From Candidatus Hydrogenedentes bacterium ADurb.Bin170 (GTDB lineage: Bacteria > Hydrogenedentota > Hydrogenedentia > Hydrogenedentales > CAITNO01): a stretch of 51,498 nucleotides of DNA. Under the pieces are notes generated by a model that saw only the letters and a list, made by a program, of their open reading frames with translations, was not told the DNA's origin and did not search any database. The stretch is taken from the NCBI GenBank assembly GCA_002070275.1, contig MWCY01000022.1, positions 1-51,498 on the forward strand. Direction: 5' to 3'. A program made the translations under genes and the position numbers. Below, one piece after another: positions 304-46,437 of this stretch. Position 1 is the stretch's first letter, and each line of letters opens with the position of its first letter.

Positions 304-437
304 TTGCGTTCCACACAGCCCTACGCCGGTGTATTGCCTCTTTCCCGCAATGCACCGGCGTTCCTCTTGCAGATCATGATCGACACAGGGGCTTATGTTA
401 AAATGAACTGCCTGCAGTTACTTGTAAAAGGGATGCT

Positions 438-1901
438 ATGCGAAATCACCTGCTCACTGCTTTTCTGATTCTTTTCGGGCTGCTGATTGGGGCCGGACAG
501 TACCTTGAACACCGGAGCATGGCACTGCACGCAGAAGCGGCTCTGGAACACCGAGCACAGGACCTCGCAGCCGCTTTCAGTGTGGTAATTCGCTCGCAAG
601 GCAGAGGAGCGCATATGTCCAGAGACCGACTGGAAGATGCCCTCATCGATCTGGTGCATACAGCCTCTCTGGAATCGGTGGTGCTGCTTGATGAATCGGG
701 AAATGTGGTCGCTGAAGCAGGCGCCCCTCTGGAATTAGATCCTGAAACACTTTTAAATGTGCGTGTCATCCGCCGCAATGACAAAGCCTCTTACGCCAAT
801 CTGATTGCACTGGGCCCGGAATCCGACAGCGGACCCCGCCGCCCCTCTGAAACGACTGGCGGAGCCCGCCCGGGTATGAGAAAACGCCGGAATATGCTCA
901 GAAATCCGGTACCGCCGCCTCCGCCGCCGGGAGGCACTGCAAACAAATTTCCGCTCCGCCCGCGACCCTTTGCCCCTGGACCGCCCCGCTGGATGAGCCA
1001 TGAAGAATACGACCGGCTCGTCCAATCTCAGGGAATACACTGGTTTCTGGTTACCCTGTCCATTCGTCCGATGCAAAAAGACATTCTCGCCGATCTTATT
1101 TTGCGGCTGTCAATTACCGGTGCCGCCTGGGTGGCGTGTGCGGCATTGGCAGCTGCCTGGCAAAGCCAGAAAAAAACGGCGCACCTTGCCGTTGCCCTGA
1201 TTGGTGCGGAGGATGCAGCGACCCGGCTGCAGGAACTGAATACAACCGCCGCCGGACTTATGCACGAAACCAAAAACCCATTGAATATTATACGGGGCAT
1301 GGCACAAATAATAGAGCAGGATCATGCGCTGCCTGCACGTACACGCACGCAGGCACGAACGATTACAGAGGAAGCGGATCGTATTACGGGGCGTTTAAAT
1401 CAATTTTTGAGCTTTGCACGTCCCCAGACACCACAAATAAAAAGCGTCGCTGTCAAAAAACTGGCGGAGGATATTTTCTCCATATTAAGTGCGGATCGGG
1501 AAGAAAAAAACGCTGTGTTTTCTCTATCAGGGCAGGATCTTAATATAAATGCAGATGAAGGAATGCTCCGGCAGATGCTCTTTAACCTTATACATAATGC
1601 TCTTCAGGCGATTGGCTACGGCGGACAGATTTCCGTAGAGTTGAAACAAAGGCCAGATCGGACCCTGCAAATTGACATCACCGATTCCGGACCCGGGGTT
1701 CCGGCAGAAAAGAAGGAGGAAATTTTTCAGCCCTATGTCAGTCACTTTGACGGCGGGACGGGATTGGGGCTTTCTATCGTGCGACGCCTTGCCGATGCTC
1801 AGGGCTGGGAAGTGCGGTGCCTCCCGGCGACAGAAGGCGCACATTTCAGAATCAGCGGGATTGCGCTTTCCTCTGCACACGTCGGAGGTGCACAAGCATG
1901 A
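438..1901 (+). CDS. Membrane sensor histidine kinase, NtrB/ZraS-like
   Basis: 487 aa. A membrane segment lies at about residues 4-20 and a second at about 222-241. Between them is a sensor region with a very proline-rich stretch (about 154-183, including six consecutive Pro). The cytoplasmic part has the HisKA H-box with phospho-acceptor His at about 276 (MHETKNPL), an N-box (FNLIHNALQ), G1 (DSGPG) and G2 (GTGLGLSIV). This is a complete HATPase_c kinase that should autophosphorylate and pass phosphate to the regulator encoded next. A ribosome site (AAAAGGGA) lies about 6 bases before the ATG. The stop overlaps the ATG of the next gene (ATGA), so the pair is translationally coupled. The signal sensed is unknown. 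The proline-rich periplasmic part is unlike a standard PAS or HAMP sensor. Confidence 0.9.
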   Translation: MRNHLLTAFLILFGLLIGAGQYLEHRSMALHAEAALEHRAQDLAAAFSVVIRSQGRGAHMSRDRLEDALIDLVHTASLESVVLLDESGNVVAEAGAPLELDPETLLNVRVIRRNDKASYANLIALGPESDSGPRRPSETTGGARPGMRKRRNMLRNPVPPPPPPGGTANKFPLRPRPFAPGPPRWMSHEEYDRLVQSQGIHWFLVTLSIRPMQKDILADLILRLSITGAAWVACAALAAAWQSQKKTAHLAVALIGAEDAATRLQELNTTAAGLMHETKNPLNIIRGMAQIIEQDHALPARTRTQARTITEEADRITGRLNQFLSFARPQTPQIKSVAVKKLAEDIFSILSADREEKNAVFSLSGQDLNINADEGMLRQMLFNLIHNALQAIGYGGQISVELKQRPDRTLQIDITDSGPGVPAEKKEEIFQPYVSHFDGGTGLGLSIVRRLADAQGWEVRCLPATEGAHFRISGIALSSAHVGGAQA

Positions 1902-7728: not shown

Positions 7729-10700
7729 GTGGCGAATGCGAACGGTGCCGGGCTCACTGTAAACGCCGATAACAGTGTTATCAGAGCATGCACAATAGAT
7801 GGACAGATTAACGGGTTTGCAGCCTGCGCAGGCGGTTTTGCGGCAAAAGGATTGGGGAGTATTTTTTCAAATTGCCAGGCAAAAGGCGAAATCAATGCTA
7901 ATTATTCTGCAGGCGGCATCATTGGCGAATGCTCAGACAACACCTTTTTAGCGTGCTGTTCGACGGCGAAAGTAAGTAATTCAGGCAGTTTTTACTATGC
8001 AGGAGGATTGGCAGGAAGAGCATCTAATTCCACACTGAAAAACTGCTACGCCCGTGGAGCGGTGTCGGGCTATTATGCCGCAGGGCTCGTAGGCTTGGCT
8101 TCTTCAGCCAATATTGAAAATTGCTATGCTGCGGCTCCCCTCTACGCTGAATCGGCGGCTGGCGGGCTGATCAGCTATGGCGGGAATGCCTCGGTAACAG
8201 CATCTTACTGGGATATGACTGTTTCAGGTATAACCGGCAGTGACGGCGGCGAAGGCGCTCCGACGGAAAGCATGACCTATCCCTACAGTGAACTCTGCTA
8301 TGTCGGGTGGGATTTTAGTAATGTATGGGCAGCAGATACAGAAGGAGAAAATGACGGGTATCCCCTGCTGCGCGATGACGGAACCGAAACACAGGCAGTA
8401 CTTGATCTGACCAAAGAGGCGCATAAGGAAAGCTTCACATATACCGGAGAAGTAATTCCCTACACAATTACACTGCTGAACATCGGTACTGCCCCCGTAC
8501 AGAACATTACAGTAAAAGATGGTCTGACCGGTCTTTCTGAGCCCATTGCGGAGATCCTGCCGGGAAGACAGTTCATTCTGGAAACGCAATACACTGTAGT
8601 TGAAGACGATTTACTCCGGGGCTCAGTGGAGAATACGGCTGAAGCAGTCGGCTACGACCCTGACGGCAATGAGGTCACGGCCGAGAGTACGGCAACGGTG
8701 CAGGGTTACATTTTTCAGCAGATGACGCTGACAATAGAAGCAGATGCGGACACGCTGCCCGGGGAAGGCGCCGAAATCACATATACCCTGGCCGTACAGA
8801 ACACCGGAAGCATGGCGCTGACTGATGTCTCTGTTGAAGATCCGCTTACCGGTCTGATCGAAACTATAGACAGACTGGATTGCATGGTCCCGAGAGAATT
8901 CACAACCCGCTATCTGGTCGCAGCGCAGGATGTTGCAGTCGCCTGTGTAGGGAATACTGCCTCAGCCAAAGGAAAAGATGTGAATGGCCTTGAAGTATCG
9001 GCTCAGGCAATTCACTATATTTTCGCCGGGACCGACCCCGGATACTGCGGCGGCAGCGGTACGGAAGCAGATCCTTTCCTGATCTGCCGAACCTCTGATT
9101 GGATTCATCTGACACAAACAACGGATGACTGGGACAAGCACTTCGCACTGACCGATGACCTCAATTTCTTCGGCGCCCTGATACCCTCCATGGGCAAAGA
9201 TGGATCTTACTTTTCAGGAAATTTGGACGGCCGGGGATACAGCCTGAAAAATATCAGGCTGGCAGGCGGCTATATCGCGCTGATTGGCAGTATCCAGGAC
9301 TGCACTATCCGTGATCTGCATCTGGAAAACATTCTCGTAGATGGAAAATATCAGGCTGCAGGGCTGGCCATTATGGCAACGCAATGCACCATCAGCGGAT
9401 GCACCGCTTCAGGTCGGTGCACAGCTGCAACCTATGATGCTGCCGGACTTGTTGTGCATTGCGGCAATAGCACGATCATCAATTGCGCTGTAGCAGCGGA
9501 GGTAAGCGGCTTTGAAAATGCCGGTGGAATTGCATGCGTCTTCCTCAATGGCACCTGCCGCAACTGCTTCTCCACAGGAAAAGTGAACGCCGCCCAGTAT
9601 AACGCAGGCGGGCTTGTCGCCTCGGCGGAATATGCCGACTTTTTAGAATGCTATTCCACGGCCGAAGTCACAGGAGACTTTCAGGCGGGCGGGCTTGTAG
9701 GCTCTTTTAACAATTCCAACATGAGCAACTGTTATGCCCAGGGAAATGTTTTCGGAGGAGAGATCGGCGGATTGATCGGCTCAACCGACAGCTGGGGTGA
9801 ATACCGCTCGACTGTTTCCAATTGCTACGCTGCAGGACAGGTGGGCTCCGAGCATGAAAGCCGAGTCCGGGGCGGTATCATCGGCATCGCTTACAGTGGA
9901 ACTGATGTAACAGCTTCTTATTGGGATACGGACCGCTCAGGCATTGTCTACAGCGCAAGCGGTGAAGGGCGCATTAACAGCGAGATGACTTATCCTTACG
10001 CAGGAAATACATTCATCGGCTGGAACTTTGACGACGTGTGGGCAGAAGACGCAACTCAAAGAAACAACGGATATCCCTGGCTGAAGAGGATTCCGCCTCC
10101 GGAAGCAGAACCGGACTTCCCTCCTGAAATTTGCCTCGACTTCAATGCGAAGCCTGCTGGTTTTCAGGCAGGCACAGATGAAATCGTGCCTGTACAGGAC
10201 GCACTGTTTCGAACCGGAGCATTTCATCTGCTTTCCGGAGACACAATCACCGATGGTTTGCTTTCAGCGATGGAAACAGACTACGGGCTTTCGCTGCATC
10301 TTGACAACATCAGTGTCGGCTATGTCTTTGGTCCTGCCGGAAATCTTCCGCTCTGTGTCAGTATCTACTGCAAAAAAGTAAAAGATATCGTAAATCTGAG
10401 TGTTAACGGAGAACTTAGGGTAGTAAAGGATTTTGCAGAACTCTACGGGACAACCGTGGGCGGAGCGCTTATCCGCGCTTTTCCGCTGAAAGACGGAAGA
10501 ACAGTCTTGCATCTGGCAGGTCCTGTATCCTCCTTCAGCATCGGTGGACAAGCGCTTTCTTTAGAAAAAATCTGCTCCCTGTGCAACGAAACTGAAACAG
10601 CTGCCCATCCCGCTGATACCGACGGAGACAATTTCATCGACATCGGCGAGGCAGCGGCTTTTGTACAGGATTGGCAGGAAGACAGTGATCCTATGACTTC

Positions 10701-10809
10701 TGCAATTCGGGCCAAGTATATCGCTGAAAAAGGCGGCGCTTATGTTTTTGACCCGGCGCTGCCTCCGCCCCTCTGCTGGATCCCCGAATCCGATATTGAC
10801 CTTTTATGA
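7729..10809 (+). CDS. Large secreted GLUG-repeat surface protein, main part after the frameshift
   Basis: 1026 codons with no ribosome site of its own at the GTG 7729; it continues the signal-peptide piece at 7353-7724. The order is: short Gly-rich GLUG-like repeats (AGG...NCYA...GE), then two DUF11/CARDB-like repeats (NIGTAPVQNITVKD and NTGSMALTDVSVED), then a second GLUG module that starts YCGGSGTEADPF and parallels the N-terminal YSGGEGTAENPY. After that comes a unique domain and a C-terminal calcium-loop/dockerin-like motif, DTDGDNFIDIGEAAAFV. Such proteins form extended beta structures on the cell surface and often act in adhesion. The role here is inferred. Its stop overlaps the next ATG (ATGA). 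Confidence 0.8.
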   Translation: MANANGAGLTVNADNSVIRACTIDGQINGFAACAGGFAAKGLGSIFSNCQAKGEINANYSAGGIIGECSDNTFLACCSTAKVSNSGSFYYAGGLAGRASNSTLKNCYARGAVSGYYAAGLVGLASSANIENCYAAAPLYAESAAGGLISYGGNASVTASYWDMTVSGITGSDGGEGAPTESMTYPYSELCYVGWDFSNVWAADTEGENDGYPLLRDDGTETQAVLDLTKEAHKESFTYTGEVIPYTITLLNIGTAPVQNITVKDGLTGLSEPIAEILPGRQFILETQYTVVEDDLLRGSVENTAEAVGYDPDGNEVTAESTATVQGYIFQQMTLTIEADADTLPGEGAEITYTLAVQNTGSMALTDVSVEDPLTGLIETIDRLDCMVPREFTTRYLVAAQDVAVACVGNTASAKGKDVNGLEVSAQAIHYIFAGTDPGYCGGSGTEADPFLICRTSDWIHLTQTTDDWDKHFALTDDLNFFGALIPSMGKDGSYFSGNLDGRGYSLKNIRLAGGYIALIGSIQDCTIRDLHLENILVDGKYQAAGLAIMATQCTISGCTASGRCTAATYDAAGLVVHCGNSTIINCAVAAEVSGFENAGGIACVFLNGTCRNCFSTGKVNAAQYNAGGLVASAEYADFLECYSTAEVTGDFQAGGLVGSFNNSNMSNCYAQGNVFGGEIGGLIGSTDSWGEYRSTVSNCYAAGQVGSEHESRVRGGIIGIAYSGTDVTASYWDTDRSGIVYSASGEGRINSEMTYPYAGNTFIGWNFDDVWAEDATQRNNGYPWLKRIPPPEAEPDFPPEICLDFNAKPAGFQAGTDEIVPVQDALFRTGAFHLLSGDTITDGLLSAMETDYGLSLHLDNISVGYVFGPAGNLPLCVSIYCKKVKDIVNLSVNGELRVVKDFAELYGTTVGGALIRAFPLKDGRTVLHLAGPVSSFSIGGQALSLEKICSLCNETETAAHPADTDGDNFIDIGEAAAFVQDWQEDSDPMTSAIRAKYIAEKGGAYVFDPALPPPLCWIPESDIDLL

Positions 10810-32848: not shown

Positions 32849-32955
32849 TTGACCAATGGATCACCTTTTCAGGTAATGGCTTCAGGCAGGGCCTCCTCTT
32901 CATATACCCCAATATAACCCCGCTCTGCCTATTCTAACTTTTCAGGAATGTGCCT

Positions 32956-34449
32956 ATGCTTATCGGCAGCCAGACAACCAGCACCCTTTTGGACGTGTTC
33001 CGCATTGGTATGACCGAAATCATTCGGGCGACCGGCCTCCCCACTGAAGCGGAATTTAAAACGCATAACTGCACCATTTCCGTGCAGGGGAAAAATCTGT
33101 CAAATCGCATTGATACCATGCGCATTTACTTCACACCCCGTGAAGGCGTAGCACCGTCCGAAGTGGAAAATGCGCTGAACGCAACCCGGCTCGGCTTCCG
33201 CATGCGACAGGAAAACGGTCAACTCGTTATTAGTGTGCCTTCCTTTGAATGGCGCCAACTGCCTGCCCTGATTCCTCTTGATCAAATCATAGAACAATTT
33301 GTTTCAAAGAGTCTGCGCTCGGAAACCTGGGAACTGGAAGTCTCCGAATATGTGGACAATGGTTTCAATATCAACAGATTGATTGAAATCATGAAAGAAA
33401 AGAAGGCATCTGACCTTCACTTGCGTGCCGGAAACCGCCCTTTTATCCGTGTCGATAACGACCTGCTCCCTCTGGAAGATACGCCGGTCATTTCCAAAGA
33501 TGACATGGAAAAGTTTGTGCTGCAGCTGGGCGGCGAGGCTGAATTACAGATGCTTGAGCGCGAACGTGAATCCAGTTTTCAATACCACGCCGCTGGCATC
33601 GGCTATCTCCGCTGCAGCGGCTATATAAAAAGCGGTGCCATGGCAATAGCATTGCGGCTCATACCGGAACAGCCTCTTCCCTTTGATGCACTGAATATCC
33701 CCGATGTAGTCCGGAAAGTGTGCGATAAACATCGCGGTCTTTTCCTCGTCTGCGGTATTACGGGAAGCGGTAAATCCACCACACTCGCCGCCATGATTGA
33801 CTATATCAATGAGCAGCGACGTGCCCACATCATCACCATTGAAGATCCCGTCGAGTACGTATATGTCGACAAAAAGAGCATTGTTTCCCAGCGTCAGGTG
33901 GGCCGTGACACGCACTCTTTCGGAAACGCTTTGCGCGGCTCTCTGCGTGAAGACCCGGACGTGATTCTGGTCGGCGAGATGCGCGACATGGAAACAATCC
34001 GCGCCGGTCTGAGCGCAGCGGAAACGGGTCACCTGGTTTTCAGCACGCTGCACACGACGACGGCTGTAGACACAATTAACCGTATGATCAGTTATTTCCC
34101 GCAAAATGAACGCGACCTGATCCGTCAGGAAATCGCCTATTCCCTGCAGGGTGTTGTCTGCCAGCGTCTGCTCAAGAAAATCGGCGGCGGGCGAATCCCT
34201 GCTGTGGAAATTCTCCTTGGCGGGATGCCCATTGTCCGTGACGCTATTTTAGATGGCGATCTCGACAAGCTTCATGGTATAATTGAAAACGATAGCGACA
34301 TGCGCAGTTTTGACCAGTACGCTGTGGAACTCTATCAGAAAGGGCTGGTCAGCAAGGAGGAAGCCATCAGCGCATGCGCCAACGAAGAGGGATTCCAGCG
34401 CATCATTTCCGGCATCAAGTCTTCAGAGGGACGCCGGCTGCTGAAATAG
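32956..34449 (+). CDS. pilT: PilT/PilU-family ATPase 1, with N-terminal extension
   Basis: 497 aa from ATG 32956 (AGGA 8 bases before). A GTG two codons upstream is possible. Residues 1-140 are an extension not found in standard PilT (about 350 aa). The PilT module follows: KASDLHLRAGNRP (150-162), Walker A GITGSGKST (267-275), Asp box HIITIEDPVEYVY, Walker B DPDVILVGEMRD and His box TGHLVFSTLHTTTA. It should power pilus retraction or a related motor at the inner membrane. No other pil genes are adjacent. A paralogue with the same layout lies at 40694-42196. Confidence 0.88.
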   Translation: MLIGSQTTSTLLDVFRIGMTEIIRATGLPTEAEFKTHNCTISVQGKNLSNRIDTMRIYFTPREGVAPSEVENALNATRLGFRMRQENGQLVISVPSFEWRQLPALIPLDQIIEQFVSKSLRSETWELEVSEYVDNGFNINRLIEIMKEKKASDLHLRAGNRPFIRVDNDLLPLEDTPVISKDDMEKFVLQLGGEAELQMLERERESSFQYHAAGIGYLRCSGYIKSGAMAIALRLIPEQPLPFDALNIPDVVRKVCDKHRGLFLVCGITGSGKSTTLAAMIDYINEQRRAHIITIEDPVEYVYVDKKSIVSQRQVGRDTHSFGNALRGSLREDPDVILVGEMRDMETIRAGLSAAETGHLVFSTLHTTTAVDTINRMISYFPQNERDLIRQEIAYSLQGVVCQRLLKKIGGGRIPAVEILLGGMPIVRDAILDGDLDKLHGIIENDSDMRSFDQYAVELYQKGLVSKEEAISACANEEGFQRIISGIKSSEGRRLLK

Positions 34450-40693: not shown

Positions 40694-42196
40694 TCACCCC
40701 CCTTTAATGGAGTCCAGGCGAGGCACAGCATAAGTACCCATGCGCATCTGGTCGAAAACACTCACATCCGTTGACATTTCCCGGGCATCTTCGAGCTTAA
40801 CGACGCCCTCTTTGAACATTTTCAGCAGATATTGCTCAAAAAGCATGGAATGCGAAATGGTTTGCTGCATGCCGACCCGAATCGCGTCTGTATCCCCTTT
40901 TAAAATTGCGTCGTTAATGGGCTTGATGTCGTTAAACAGAAATTCCAGCGCCGGCACACGCCCGCCTCCCACTTTGGGAACAAGGCGCTGACAGATAACA
41001 CCGCGCAGACAGTCCCGCAGCTGAAGCCGGACGAGATCCCGTTCTATTGGATCAAAGAAGCTCACGACACGATTGATCACTTCATAGGAGGTATTGGAGT
41101 GAAGCGTACTGATAACCAGATGACCGGTGGCGGCAGCATTTATCGCAGCACGAATGGTATCGGGGTCGCGCATTTCACCAATGAGAATAACATCAGGATC
41201 ATGACGAAGGGCACCGGTCACCGCTTCGCTGAAAGAGCGCACATCTGTTCCGATATTTCGCTGGGAAACAATGGATTTTTTGTTGGCGTGAACGAATTCA
41301 ACAGGGTTTTCTATCGTTAAAATATGAAGCGCCTTGTGTGCGTTAATCCAATCCAGAAGGGCTGCCATGGTAGTGGTTTTACCGCTGCCTGTCATTCCGG
41401 TAATGAGGATAAGTCCACGCGGCGTGCTGGCAATTGTCTGCATCTGCTGCGCTGGAACATTCAAATCTTCGAAGGAAGGGATTTTTTCCGGCAGGTACCG
41501 GAAAGTACAGTGCGGTGCACCGTTTTTGAGAAAAGCAGATACACGGGAGTAGCCCATGCCTGCCTGATGATAGCTGTAGCTGGTTTGCTTGAACTCCTCA
41601 AATTCGTCATAAAATCCGGGAGGCGCCGTCCTGCGGATCAGCGTTCGGATCTGCGATCCGGAAAAGGACTGCATGATATCTGAAAAACGGGCATCATTAT
41701 CAATACGGAAAATAGGTTTCAGGCCGGCAGTCAGGTGCACGTCACTTGCTTTATACTGAATCATGGCCTGAAAGAGTTTTTCTACATTGATGATCTTATC
41801 CTGAAAGTCTGAGCCCTCTGCGTGCCAAACTTCGGGAAGGCGGATAATTTTTGTAAGCGCATCAAATGCCTCGTGGTGCTCTTCCTTTAACTCTTTGTCC
41901 GAAGGCGGCACCTGGATGCACCACTGATCCTCCCCTTCTTCCGCACAGACTAAATCGGGATAGTCTTCCAGGTATTTTTTCAGCGCTTCCTCATCAGTGC
42001 GCGCTTTGGTCACGCGGATCTCGTAATGTGTAAAATCGCCCTCGAGGCCGCTCCGCAGCGCAACAATGCTGCTTGAATTGGTCCAGGCACGAATACGCCC
42101 CGGAATCCCTTCCCTTTTGGTAATTTGTTCATCAAAGAGCCGAACAATGACGCGCACAGGTTTCTTGTAACCGACACCTAAAACGATTTCAGCCAT
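40694..42196 (-). CDS. pilT: PilT/PilU-family ATPase 2, with N-terminal extension
   Basis: 500 aa, ATG with GGGAGG 7 bases before. It has the same layout as the protein at 32956-34449: an N-terminal extension of about 148 residues, unlike the first in sequence, then the PilT module. KASDVHLTAGLKP, Walker A GMTGSGKTT at 267-275, Walker B DPDVILIGEMRD and His box TGHLVISTLHSNTS are intact. The Asp box reads ILTIENPVEF, with Asn where the first paralogue has Asp. A role in pilus retraction or twitching is likely; one of the two may be PilU-like. Confidence 0.88.
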   Translation of the reverse strand: MAEIVLGVGYKKPVRVIVRLFDEQITKREGIPGRIRAWTNSSSIVALRSGLEGDFTHYEIRVTKARTDEEALKKYLEDYPDLVCAEEGEDQWCIQVPPSDKELKEEHHEAFDALTKIIRLPEVWHAEGSDFQDKIINVEKLFQAMIQYKASDVHLTAGLKPIFRIDNDARFSDIMQSFSGSQIRTLIRRTAPPGFYDEFEEFKQTSYSYHQAGMGYSRVSAFLKNGAPHCTFRYLPEKIPSFEDLNVPAQQMQTIASTPRGLILITGMTGSGKTTTMAALLDWINAHKALHILTIENPVEFVHANKKSIVSQRNIGTDVRSFSEAVTGALRHDPDVILIGEMRDPDTIRAAINAAATGHLVISTLHSNTSYEVINRVVSFFDPIERDLVRLQLRDCLRGVICQRLVPKVGGGRVPALEFLFNDIKPINDAILKGDTDAIRVGMQQTISHSMLFEQYLLKMFKEGVVKLEDAREMSTDVSVFDQMRMGTYAVPRLDSIKGG

Positions 42197-43720: not shown

Positions 43721-44764
43721 TCAGCGGGCAACACCGTTATCCTTACAGACGGGCACCGCAAAACGCCGGATCTCATGGATGCCGGATTCCGCCGCAACTT
43801 CTGCATAGACCCATAGTTCACCGTCCACCCAAAGCCAGCTTGAATAACGCCAGGTGTGCCCGGCGGCAGAAGGCGTTGTGCTTAAAAGGAGCGGTGACTG
43901 AGGTGTAAGATCCTGTATGTTGTGCAGATCGAAGCTGAAGCCCAGTCCTGTGCCGATATTGTACACAGGCTCATACCAGCTCACGTTGGAGCCTTCATAC
44001 ACAAAAAGGTAGCCTATTCCCAGAGAGAGCACGGAAGCAGGCCTGACAAAAAAATCATGCCAGCCCTGCAGCTGCATAAGGGATTCATAGGGACTGCCGA
44101 CAGGCTCCCATTTTTCTCCGTCCGGGCTTGAAAAATGGTAAATACGCTCGTTTTTGCGAAGATACCCGATGACATAGCAGTGATAGGCATTTTCTGCAAA
44201 GAGTATTACCGGATCTTTATACTCAGTCGGCACAACATCATGGTCATAGCTTTTGGCAAAGGGCGTGATGACCGGGCGTGCACTCGCTGCACAAAACTGA
44301 TCGGGAGCAGGTGCATCATCAAATTTGATAACAGACCAGGGCCCGCCCTGCCAGGGTCCGCAGGCATACAGTTTCGCATTGCCGGTCTTCGGATCCCGGA
44401 GCAGTGCAGGACGTTCAAAGCCGGGGATAGGAACAGCTTCCCGCGCAATACTCAAGGCTTTTTCAAAATGGATTCCGTCCGGGCTTTTCAGAATGCGGAT
44501 TTCATAGCCTCTCAGTCCCCGCGGATCCGTGGTATTTCGCATCCTGCACGCCATCCAAAACGCACCCTCGCTGTCACGCATCAGGGATGGTGCCCCGGCC
44601 CACCAGCCTTCCTCAAGCACATCCGGCTGAAGGATCAGGTCATAGCGCTGAAAAAAGTCAGGAACTTTACCAAAAACATTCTCGACAGCAGGTGAACTTC
44701 CGGAAAAATCGGCAGGTATCTGCGTTGCTGCCAACACCAGGAAAGCAAGCAGATTTGTCAACAT
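43721..44764 (-). CDS. Putative secreted glycosidase-like beta-propeller protein
   Basis: 347 aa with an N-terminal signal peptide (MLTNLLAFLVLAATQIPA). The body shows repeated blade-like motifs: WWAGAPSLMRDSEGAFWMACR, ILKSPDGIHFEKAL, HFSSPDGEKWEPVG, DPVILFAENAYHCYVIG. The SPDGxxWE pattern is usual in five-bladed propellers of GH43/GH32/GH130-type enzymes and sialidase-like proteins. The Asp/Glu triad cannot be assigned with confidence. It probably acts on extracellular glycans. It lies 63 bp after the coiled-coil/MshEN gene on the same strand and is followed by the rplJL promoter. Confidence 0.6.
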   Translation of the reverse strand: MLTNLLAFLVLAATQIPADFSGSSPAVENVFGKVPDFFQRYDLILQPDVLEEGWWAGAPSLMRDSEGAFWMACRMRNTTDPRGLRGYEIRILKSPDGIHFEKALSIAREAVPIPGFERPALLRDPKTGNAKLYACGPWQGGPWSVIKFDDAPAPDQFCAASARPVITPFAKSYDHDVVPTEYKDPVILFAENAYHCYVIGYLRKNERIYHFSSPDGEKWEPVGSPYESLMQLQGWHDFFVRPASVLSLGIGYLFVYEGSNVSWYEPVYNIGTGLGFSFDLHNIQDLTPQSPLLLSTTPSAAGHTWRYSSWLWVDGELWVYAEVAAESGIHEIRRFAVPVCKDNGVAR

Positions 44765-44827: not shown

Positions 44828-46354
44828 TTACACAGCGTAAAAACGCTCTATGGCCGATGTAATGGCATCACTGGTAGCGACTGCCGGTTCTACAGTGCAC
44901 CCCGTTGCAAGTTCAATATCCTCGATGGCAATCAGGTCAAGAGGGTTTTCCATGGCAACCCGAAGGCGCTTTCCGTCTTTTGAGATTGGAAGACATCGGT
45001 GATTTTTAACAAGATATGCGGGAACCAGGCGGATAGCTTCTGTGGTTGCCATCGTCTCCAGTTTTTCAACAAAAGGCAAGGACAGCTGGGCGGCAAGTGC
45101 CGCGGCAATCACTTCAGATGTGGCATAGCCCAGTTCAATAAAAACGCTGCCGATACGCCGTTTAAACCCTGACGCTTTAAAACGCAACGCCTCTTCCAGC
45201 TGCTCGCTGGTAACAACACCAGCATCACACAGAATCTCACCGAAAAGTTTACGCTGACTTGCTCTTGTCGACGATGGGCGCTTTTCCTGTGTCGCTGAAG
45301 ACACAGACTCATATACTTGCCGGGCAGATAGGGGCACACCGGTTTTGTCGCCGGCGGTGTCCGAAAGACGCCCTGCCACTGCCACACGTGCCCGCAGCCG
45401 GATGCTATCCGCCCGCTCTTTCTCCAATGCCGCTTCCGCCTGCTTCAACTGGTCACGCAGCTCAGTCATTTCTTCGCGCTGCTGCTTGAAATTCTCCAGC
45501 TGATCCAGCAGCATTTTTGTCTGCACTTCGTATTTATCACTGCTTTCCGCCGCATCCTGCAAAGCAGACTCCAGACTTTGAATGTGCTTTTCTTTCTCTT
45601 CCAGTGCCTGCTGGATTTCATCAGCCATTTGCTTTGCTGCGGCAGCTGCCTGAATTTCTTCGGCCAGCTGTTGATTCTCCTGCTCTCTTTCCTGCAGCCG
45701 GGCATGCAACTCTTCCCGCTCCTGCTGTATCGCACTGTGCTCGTCTCCCAGTGCACTGTAATCCAATTTAAGCCGATCTAATTCCTCGCGGACTGCTGCA
45801 CATGTCTGGCGGGACGCTTCCAGTGTTTCATTCACAGCGGCAATTTCCGCCTCTTTTTCCCGTAAAAGCTCTTCATTTCTCAGCAGCTCCCCATCTTTCT
45901 CCGCAAGAACAGCCTCCTTCTCCGCAAGCACTGCTTCTTTTTCCTGAATTATTTCACCCCGGCTCTGCAGCTGCTCTTCCAATGCACGTATCTGCTGCTC
46001 TTGAATCTGGTTATTTTGTTTAACTTCTTCATAATCAGAGAGCTGACGTTCCAGTAATGCCAGTTTTTCCGCCAACGCATCCCGATCAGCCAGTTCGGCT
46101 GTCAGCCGGCTGATTTCTTCTCGCAGCAGTGATTCTTTAGACTGCACTTCCTGCAGCTCTGAATTAAAAACAGCCTGCTGCTTCTCCGCAGCAGATGCAT
46201 TTTCCCGGGCAAGCATTTCTCCGCGCCGCACAAACATGAGTTTGACTTTTTCAAGTCCTTCTACAATTGCGGCTACAGAATGGGCACGCTGTGCATCCAA
46301 TTCGTCCAGCACAGCACTCATGTTTTCAAGAGTGCTTTTAGCCTCAGCATCCAT
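44828..46354 (-). CDS. Long coiled-coil protein with C-terminal MshEN (type II/IV ATPase N-terminal) domain
   Basis: 508 aa from ATG 46354 (AAAGGAAAG upstream). Residues about 1-330 are one long coiled coil, rich in Glu/Gln/Leu/Lys heptads with repeated EKEAVLAEKEAVLAEK-like stretches. After a linker, the last ~135 residues match the MshEN domain: FGEILCDAGVVTSEQLEEAL and RIGSVFIELGYATSEVIAAA, then LVPAYLVKNHRCLPI and VAMENPLDL. In MshE these two motifs bind c-di-GMP. The second motif keeps Arg and Gln; the first has lost them. No ATPase follows, so this is an adaptor or sensor, perhaps for pilus motors. Confidence 0.75.
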   Translation of the reverse strand: MDAEAKSTLENMSAVLDELDAQRAHSVAAIVEGLEKVKLMFVRRGEMLARENASAAEKQQAVFNSELQEVQSKESLLREEISRLTAELADRDALAEKLALLERQLSDYEEVKQNNQIQEQQIRALEEQLQSRGEIIQEKEAVLAEKEAVLAEKDGELLRNEELLREKEAEIAAVNETLEASRQTCAAVREELDRLKLDYSALGDEHSAIQQEREELHARLQEREQENQQLAEEIQAAAAAKQMADEIQQALEEKEKHIQSLESALQDAAESSDKYEVQTKMLLDQLENFKQQREEMTELRDQLKQAEAALEKERADSIRLRARVAVAGRLSDTAGDKTGVPLSARQVYESVSSATQEKRPSSTRASQRKLFGEILCDAGVVTSEQLEEALRFKASGFKRRIGSVFIELGYATSEVIAAALAAQLSLPFVEKLETMATTEAIRLVPAYLVKNHRCLPISKDGKRLRVAMENPLDLIAIEDIELATGCTVEPAVATSDAITSAIERFYAV

Positions 46355-46437
46355 AAATCTTTCCTTTACATGCCGGAGCACAAACCTTCACTTTTTCAGT
46401 GGAAGTGAAAAAACCGGGGGCTTACACGACATACCGC

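Follow-up and report, generated by a model that had tools for sequence, protein, structure and literature searches.

The gene on the minus strand at positions 44828-46354 of a 51,498-nucleotide contig from a Candidatus Hydrogenedentes genome (the whole contig is hereafter called the window) encodes a known receptor domain, MshEN, in a new architecture: the domain ends a coiled-coil rod and is attached to no motor. The protein is one case of a recurrent architecture, not a one-off, and the clade that combines a coiled coil with a C-terminal MshEN was restricted, in our survey, to the phylum Ca. Hydrogenedentota. The main known role of MshEN is that of a c-di-GMP switch on pilus and secretion motors, and some fusions to enzymes and signalling proteins are also on record. 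Within a partial coverage of the literature, we found no paper on this architecture or on Hydrogenedentota pili.

Architecture of the protein

The coding sequence, established by ORF reading and domain searches, specifies 508 amino acids plus a stop and runs from an ATG at 46354 to a TAA at 44830-44828 (minus strand). We assigned the start to this ATG, rather than to a GTG at 46381, because a probable ribosome-binding site (AAAGGAA, 46361-46367, minus strand) lies 6 bases 5' of it and because the orthologous protein of a sister Hydrogenedens species begins at the same Met. No consensus promoter was seen on the coding strand near the gene; the consensus may not fit this phylum. An Rfam scan of the window at gathering threshold gave one tRNA and nothing else, so there is no c-di-GMP riboswitch match in the window.

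The upstream part of the protein is a genuine coiled coil. Residues 1-345 are 17% E, 13% L and 15% A, are also rich in Q, and contain one Pro; the coil has a period-3.5 hydrophobic signal (z = 6.1) that was equalled by none of 300 shuffles. The original prediction of a 330-residue coiled coil was right in kind and needs adjustment in length: because AF2 models residues 4-314 (45413-46345, minus strand) as one continuous helix, which carries the heptad periodicity, the coiled part is about 310 residues long and is followed by a linker of about 50. This linker (residues 316-367; 45254-45409, minus strand) is disordered and of low confidence in the model. The end of the coil, residues 268-326 (45377-45553, minus strand), is conserved across the target's GTDB family above the remainder of the coil, with the pattern K-M-L-L-D-Q-[LI]...E-L-R...L-E...E-R...L-R-A-[RQ]. 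Matches of the coil to SMC, Rad50 and laminin scored far under the cut-off and were dismissed as ordinary coiled-coil cross-matches.

A complete MshEN domain, the presence of which had been predicted, occupies the C-terminus (residues about 369-507, minus strand). PF05157 (MshEN) scores 67.5 bits over residues 424-507, against a cut-off of 23.1, and NF053729 (MshE-related c-di-GMP domain) scores 42.2 bits over residues 371-423, against a cut-off of 38. The C-terminal subdomain (residues 427-507; 44834-45076, minus strand), recognized by Pfam, motif reading and AF2 fold, carries the NPLDLIAIEDIELATG signature. A phmmer search of PDB sequences matched PilF, PilB and MshE over residues 366-507. 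Neither Pfam nor NCBIfam gave a T2SSE/ATPase match anywhere in the protein, and one or two residues remain after the MshEN match; the earlier description of an MshEN that ends a long coiled-coil protein without an ATPase is thereby confirmed.

The full-length AF2 model (monomer, from a shallow alignment of nine relatives) consists of the helix, the disordered stretch and an MshEN fold, with a mean pLDDT of 78.8; its pTM of 0.31 is that expected of a rod with a tethered domain. Modelled alone, the MshEN domain reached a pLDDT of 88.5, with a four-helix bundle (MshEN_N) and an alpha/beta fold (MshEN_C). Its best structural match in the PDB is 5htl, MshE with c-di-GMP (TM 0.77/0.82), and all 21 structure matches at E <= 0.001 are MshEN-type, the PilB-PilZ complexes 7lko and 7lkm among them.

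Ligand motifs and constraint

As predicted from the sequence, one ligand motif is intact and the other degenerate (residues numbered as in V. cholerae MshE; PMC5013675). Motif II (residues 400-423; 45086-45157, minus strand) reads RIG...I...L..Q and conforms to RLGxx..LxxxLxxQ: R38, G40, G47, L58 and Q61 are present, and L39 and L54 are both replaced by I. Motif I (residues 370-393; 45176-45247, minus strand) reads LFG...K where RLG...Q is expected; G11, G18, L25 and L29 are kept, and R9 to L, L10 to F and Q32 to K take it out of the consensus (LFG...L...L..K). The same three replacements are found in the sister Hydrogenedens species. Within the family, motif I is most altered in the target, where none of R9, L10 and Q32 remains.

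Characterized homologs bear on what these changes may do. In MshE (PMC5013675), changes at R9 or Q32 alter affinity by at most about fivefold, L10A costs 36-fold in affinity, and changes at G11 or G40 abolish c-di-GMP binding. In T. thermophilus PilF GSPII-A, a few motif deviations together with subdomain contacts abolish binding, and a minimal construct no longer bound when the motif II Arg was replaced by Ser (PMC12002112). Given the MshE mutant and GSPII-A data, weak or no binding is expected of the target. The motif comparison suggests that c-di-GMP binding by the Hydrogenedens protein is weakened or lost, though not certainly absent, with its interaction surface kept; the genus may bind c-di-GMP weakly or not at all.

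Comparison of the two Hydrogenedens species points to strong purifying selection on the MshEN domain. Identity to the sister protein is 92% in MshEN_N (residues 367-425) and 75% in MshEN_C (426-508), against 67% in residues 1-55, 43% in the coil (56-345) and 25% in the linker (346-366). Between these species dN is 0.06-0.08 in MshEN_N, 0.06-0.13 over MshEN as a whole and 0.5-0.6 along the coil; dS is saturated or could be estimated only poorly. The subdomain predicted to hold the ligand, MshEN_N, is thus the most conserved part of the protein despite its degenerate motif I. We considered whether the domain is a functionless leftover of a decaying PilB-like ATPase, as one degenerate motif and the missing ATPase might suggest; this is extremely improbable and is refuted by conservation, given the apparent selection on MshEN and the recurrence of the arrangement across the phylum. 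Nor can truncation yield such a protein, because MshEN is C-terminal here and N-terminal in PilB.

Distribution in Ca. Hydrogenedentota

In all 61 distinct relatives from the phylum, MshEN is C-terminal, with fewer than 60 residues beyond it and no ATPase after it (the tail was at most 31 aa in one set of members). One further phylum ORF outside these 61 (L052) has MshEN near the N-terminus and a Walker A-like motif. In a domain tree, the 43 sampled coiled-coil MshEN proteins fall into a single clade (support 98/95), separate from this genome's ATPase MshENs, and the target branches with relatives from its GTDB family (99/94). At E <= 1e-36, a profile search matched 55 of 68 phylum genomes and 25 of 223 genomes outside it; in each of the 12 outside matches that were inspected, MshEN is the N-terminal part of a frame of 556-651 aa, and 10 of them have Walker A by a strict pattern. 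The restriction to the phylum refers to 223 outside genomes at a strict threshold, and similar proteins may exist elsewhere; in this survey the phylum itself is represented by metagenome assemblies only, which are fragmented. The 32 related loci in named records are all labelled Candidatus Hydrogenedentota (or Hydrogenedens/Hydrogenedentes) bar five: three come from entries named 'uncultured bacterium', and two belong to a single 'Rhodothermaeota' bin.

The original prediction would have been undermined by the loss of both ligand motifs across the family, and this is not what we found. G11, G40 and Q61 are each invariant (61/61), and Q32 is present in 57, R38 in 40 and R9 in 35 of the 61 members; the Arg, Gly and Gln of both motifs are kept in 26 of 62 rows when the target is counted. 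On the strength of the three invariant residues and of Q32, the majority of the family probably binds c-di-GMP. ATPase MshENs in a control alignment mostly keep G11, G40 and Q61 as well, so these residues mark a retained ligand site and not a peculiarity of the family. An N-terminal motif, RLExAIxxWxxE...LxxQIxxA, occurs in 36 of the 61 members and could not be detected in the target or in its orthologs within the GTDB family.

Gene neighbourhood

Two PilT-family ATPases are encoded in the window, at 32950-34449 (plus strand) and 40694-42196 (minus strand). They are 44% identical over the ATPase part, and each begins with a region of about 120-140 residues that has no Pfam match and that BLAST does not align with that of the other. 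A tie between the coiled-coil protein and these ATPases had been proposed, and the comparative data do not support it. The two ORFs are two of seven pilT-family genes in the genome. A block of five genes (mtlD, pdhC, lpd, the target and the gene downstream of it) is conserved and collinear in the sister species, where the 16.4 kb examined lack rplJ, rplL and pilT. A tblastn search of 55 family loci (644 kb) found no pilB, pilM or GGDEF gene; its single pilT-like match, in L135, is separated from the family gene by about 3.6 kb. With that one exception, relatives do not carry the gene near pil genes: an operon or neighbourhood with pil genes was looked for in 32 and then in 55 loci and was not found.

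The protein could nevertheless regulate type IV pili: its MshEN, as an imitation of the one in PilB, would compete for PilB partners such as PilM or PilZ, tether them, or place the pilus machine. The closest characterized domains are those of PilB, PilF and MshE, and the genome has several pilB, pilT and pilM genes; against this, a lone pilT is the only type IV pilus neighbour in the 55 loci and the sister locus has none. Gene context is compatible with such a role because regulators can be unlinked, and we consider it unlikely. The predicted signal-responsive scaffold for pilus or motility machinery thus survives in part: a scaffold is a reasonable reading, and the link to a pilus motor is unsupported.

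Two other genes of the window may be described here. The gene just downstream of the target (43721-44764, minus strand) encodes 347 aa with no Pfam or NCBIfam match; its counterpart in the sister species is collinear with it, at 74% identity. A 1026-aa protein with GLUG and DUF7507/DUF11 repeats (7729-10809, plus strand) is probably a surface protein.

In other families of the phylum, a different neighbour emerged. All-against-all clustering of neighbours singled out only a PilZ-YkuD (L,D-transpeptidase) gene, together with YihY. The PilZ-YkuD gene lies upstream of the family gene on the opposite strand (head-to-head) in 11 loci, including L038, L046, L050, L053, L055, L057, L128, L136 and L138, and within 300 bases in nine of the 11. 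Five of these genes were confirmed in Pfam, and all 11 have D/NxSxxG, with RxxxR in the PilZ region. By a rough estimate the adjacency is far above chance, given about one such gene per multi-megabase genome: PilZ-YkuD relatives were found in 29 of 62 genomes, nearly always in single copy. None occurs in the 17 genomes of the target's GTDB family, and the neighbour is therefore a lead for the family and not for the target. Beside PilZ-YkuD, a YihY-like gene is present in four loci; Gfo/Idh oxidoreductases and nucleotidyltransferases also recur among the family neighbours.

A broader proposal follows these observations, and we put it forward tentatively, as rather improbable. The family would consist of phylum-specific, c-di-GMP-responsive coiled-coil scaffolds, in which an enzyme-free MshEN and a divergent PilZ-YkuD partner couple c-di-GMP to peptidoglycan cross-linking or envelope attachment; Hydrogenedens would have kept the scaffold, without the partner and with a half-retired ligand site.

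Other MshEN and c-di-GMP genes of the genome

The genome has ten MshEN ORFs: the target, six PilB/GspE ATPases and three others. One of the three (L006 / L152, contig C6) is again a coiled-coil protein with MshEN at its end, in a frame of about 895 aa. Its relatives are found in 13 of 17 genomes of the GTDB family, its own genome counted (E <= 1e-15), and in L006 and these relatives the Arg, Gly and Gln of motif II are lost in the rows that align. Two further ORFs have MshEN without an ATPase: L007 (contig C118), with a cyclic-nucleotide (cNMP-binding) domain, and L008 (contig C14), in which an HDOD-like region follows, as judged by eye.

With one canonical GGDEF ORF (RYGGDEF), two HD_5 (HD-GYP-type) domains and one stand-alone PilZ, c-di-GMP signalling is available in this genome, which could in principle make and degrade the messenger. 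Two more GGDEF-family ORFs (L064 and L065) lack the GGDEF motif, so one canonical diguanylate cyclase is seen; one of the two starts like a receiver domain.

These data bear on whether the Hydrogenedens MshEN responds to c-di-GMP at all. It might only dock a partner, which the coil would cluster or position, and we rate this as a serious possibility that is still more probably wrong than right. Both species share R9L, L10F and Q32K in an MshEN_N that is 92% identical, motif II is gone from the second coiled-coil MshEN group in the target's GTDB family, the genome has a stand-alone PilZ, and the structural matches include PilB-PilZ complexes; X. citri PilB ND0/ND1, which docks PilZ without c-di-GMP motifs, is a precedent. 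On the other side, motif II, G11, G40 and the hydrophobic cluster are kept beyond the need of docking alone, and changes at R9 and Q32 are tolerated in MshE (PMC5013675).

Discussion

Our preferred reading, in which we have about as much confidence as doubt, makes the protein a coiled-coil adaptor that works in the cytosol as part of the c-di-GMP network of Ca. Hydrogenedentota. Self-association is usual for long helices with heptad repeats, and MshEN domains either bind c-di-GMP or dock partners such as PilM. The rod would self-associate and set a distance, the flexible linker would let the C-terminal MshEN reach a partner, and the ligand state of the MshEN four-helix bundle would change which partner is held. 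Here we infer c-di-GMP binding by the family, oligomerization and the identity of the partner. There is also precedent for the binding of a PilZ protein by an MshEN-like domain (PMC8389850). Against the adaptor reading, PilZ-YkuD is missing from the target's GTDB family, the target's motif I is the most altered, and a coil could serve anything.

Among the closest known systems, V. cholerae MshE (PF05157; 5HTL) has the same two-subdomain fold at its N-terminus, and the target keeps motif II and all four motif glycines. What sets the target apart is the place of the domain, at the C-terminal end of a coiled coil and without an ATPase, and R9L/L10F/Q32K in motif I. With X. citri PilB ND0/ND1 bound to PilZ (7LKM/7LKO, PMC8389850) it has in common an MshEN-type fold and incomplete c-di-GMP motifs, and in other parts of the phylum the family has PilZ-domain genes as neighbours; however, PilB has a motor domain and the target none, and a contact between target and PilZ is hypothetical. 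T. thermophilus PilF GSPII-A/B/C (PMC12002112, PMC11731258) includes binding and non-binding versions of MshEN that differ by small motif changes, in tandem on an ATPase, whereas the target's rod bears only one. Non-ATPase proteins such as NfrB (glycosyltransferase, REC, HD-GYP and kinase fusions; PMC5013675) likewise carry MshEN off a secretion ATPase; those fusions have a recognizable output domain, whereas the coiled coil is the sole other part of the target. Nowhere does the main text of that paper use the word 'coiled'.

In this phylum MshEN has been placed, frequently in multiple copies, at the end of rods that lack a motor, where it would act as the sensor. Should the family bind c-di-GMP, these proteins would be an added class of non-enzymatic effectors, with a predicted link to PilZ and peptidoglycan. 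The target's genus may serve as a natural experiment in how far a single MshEN motif can erode while the fold remains under constraint.
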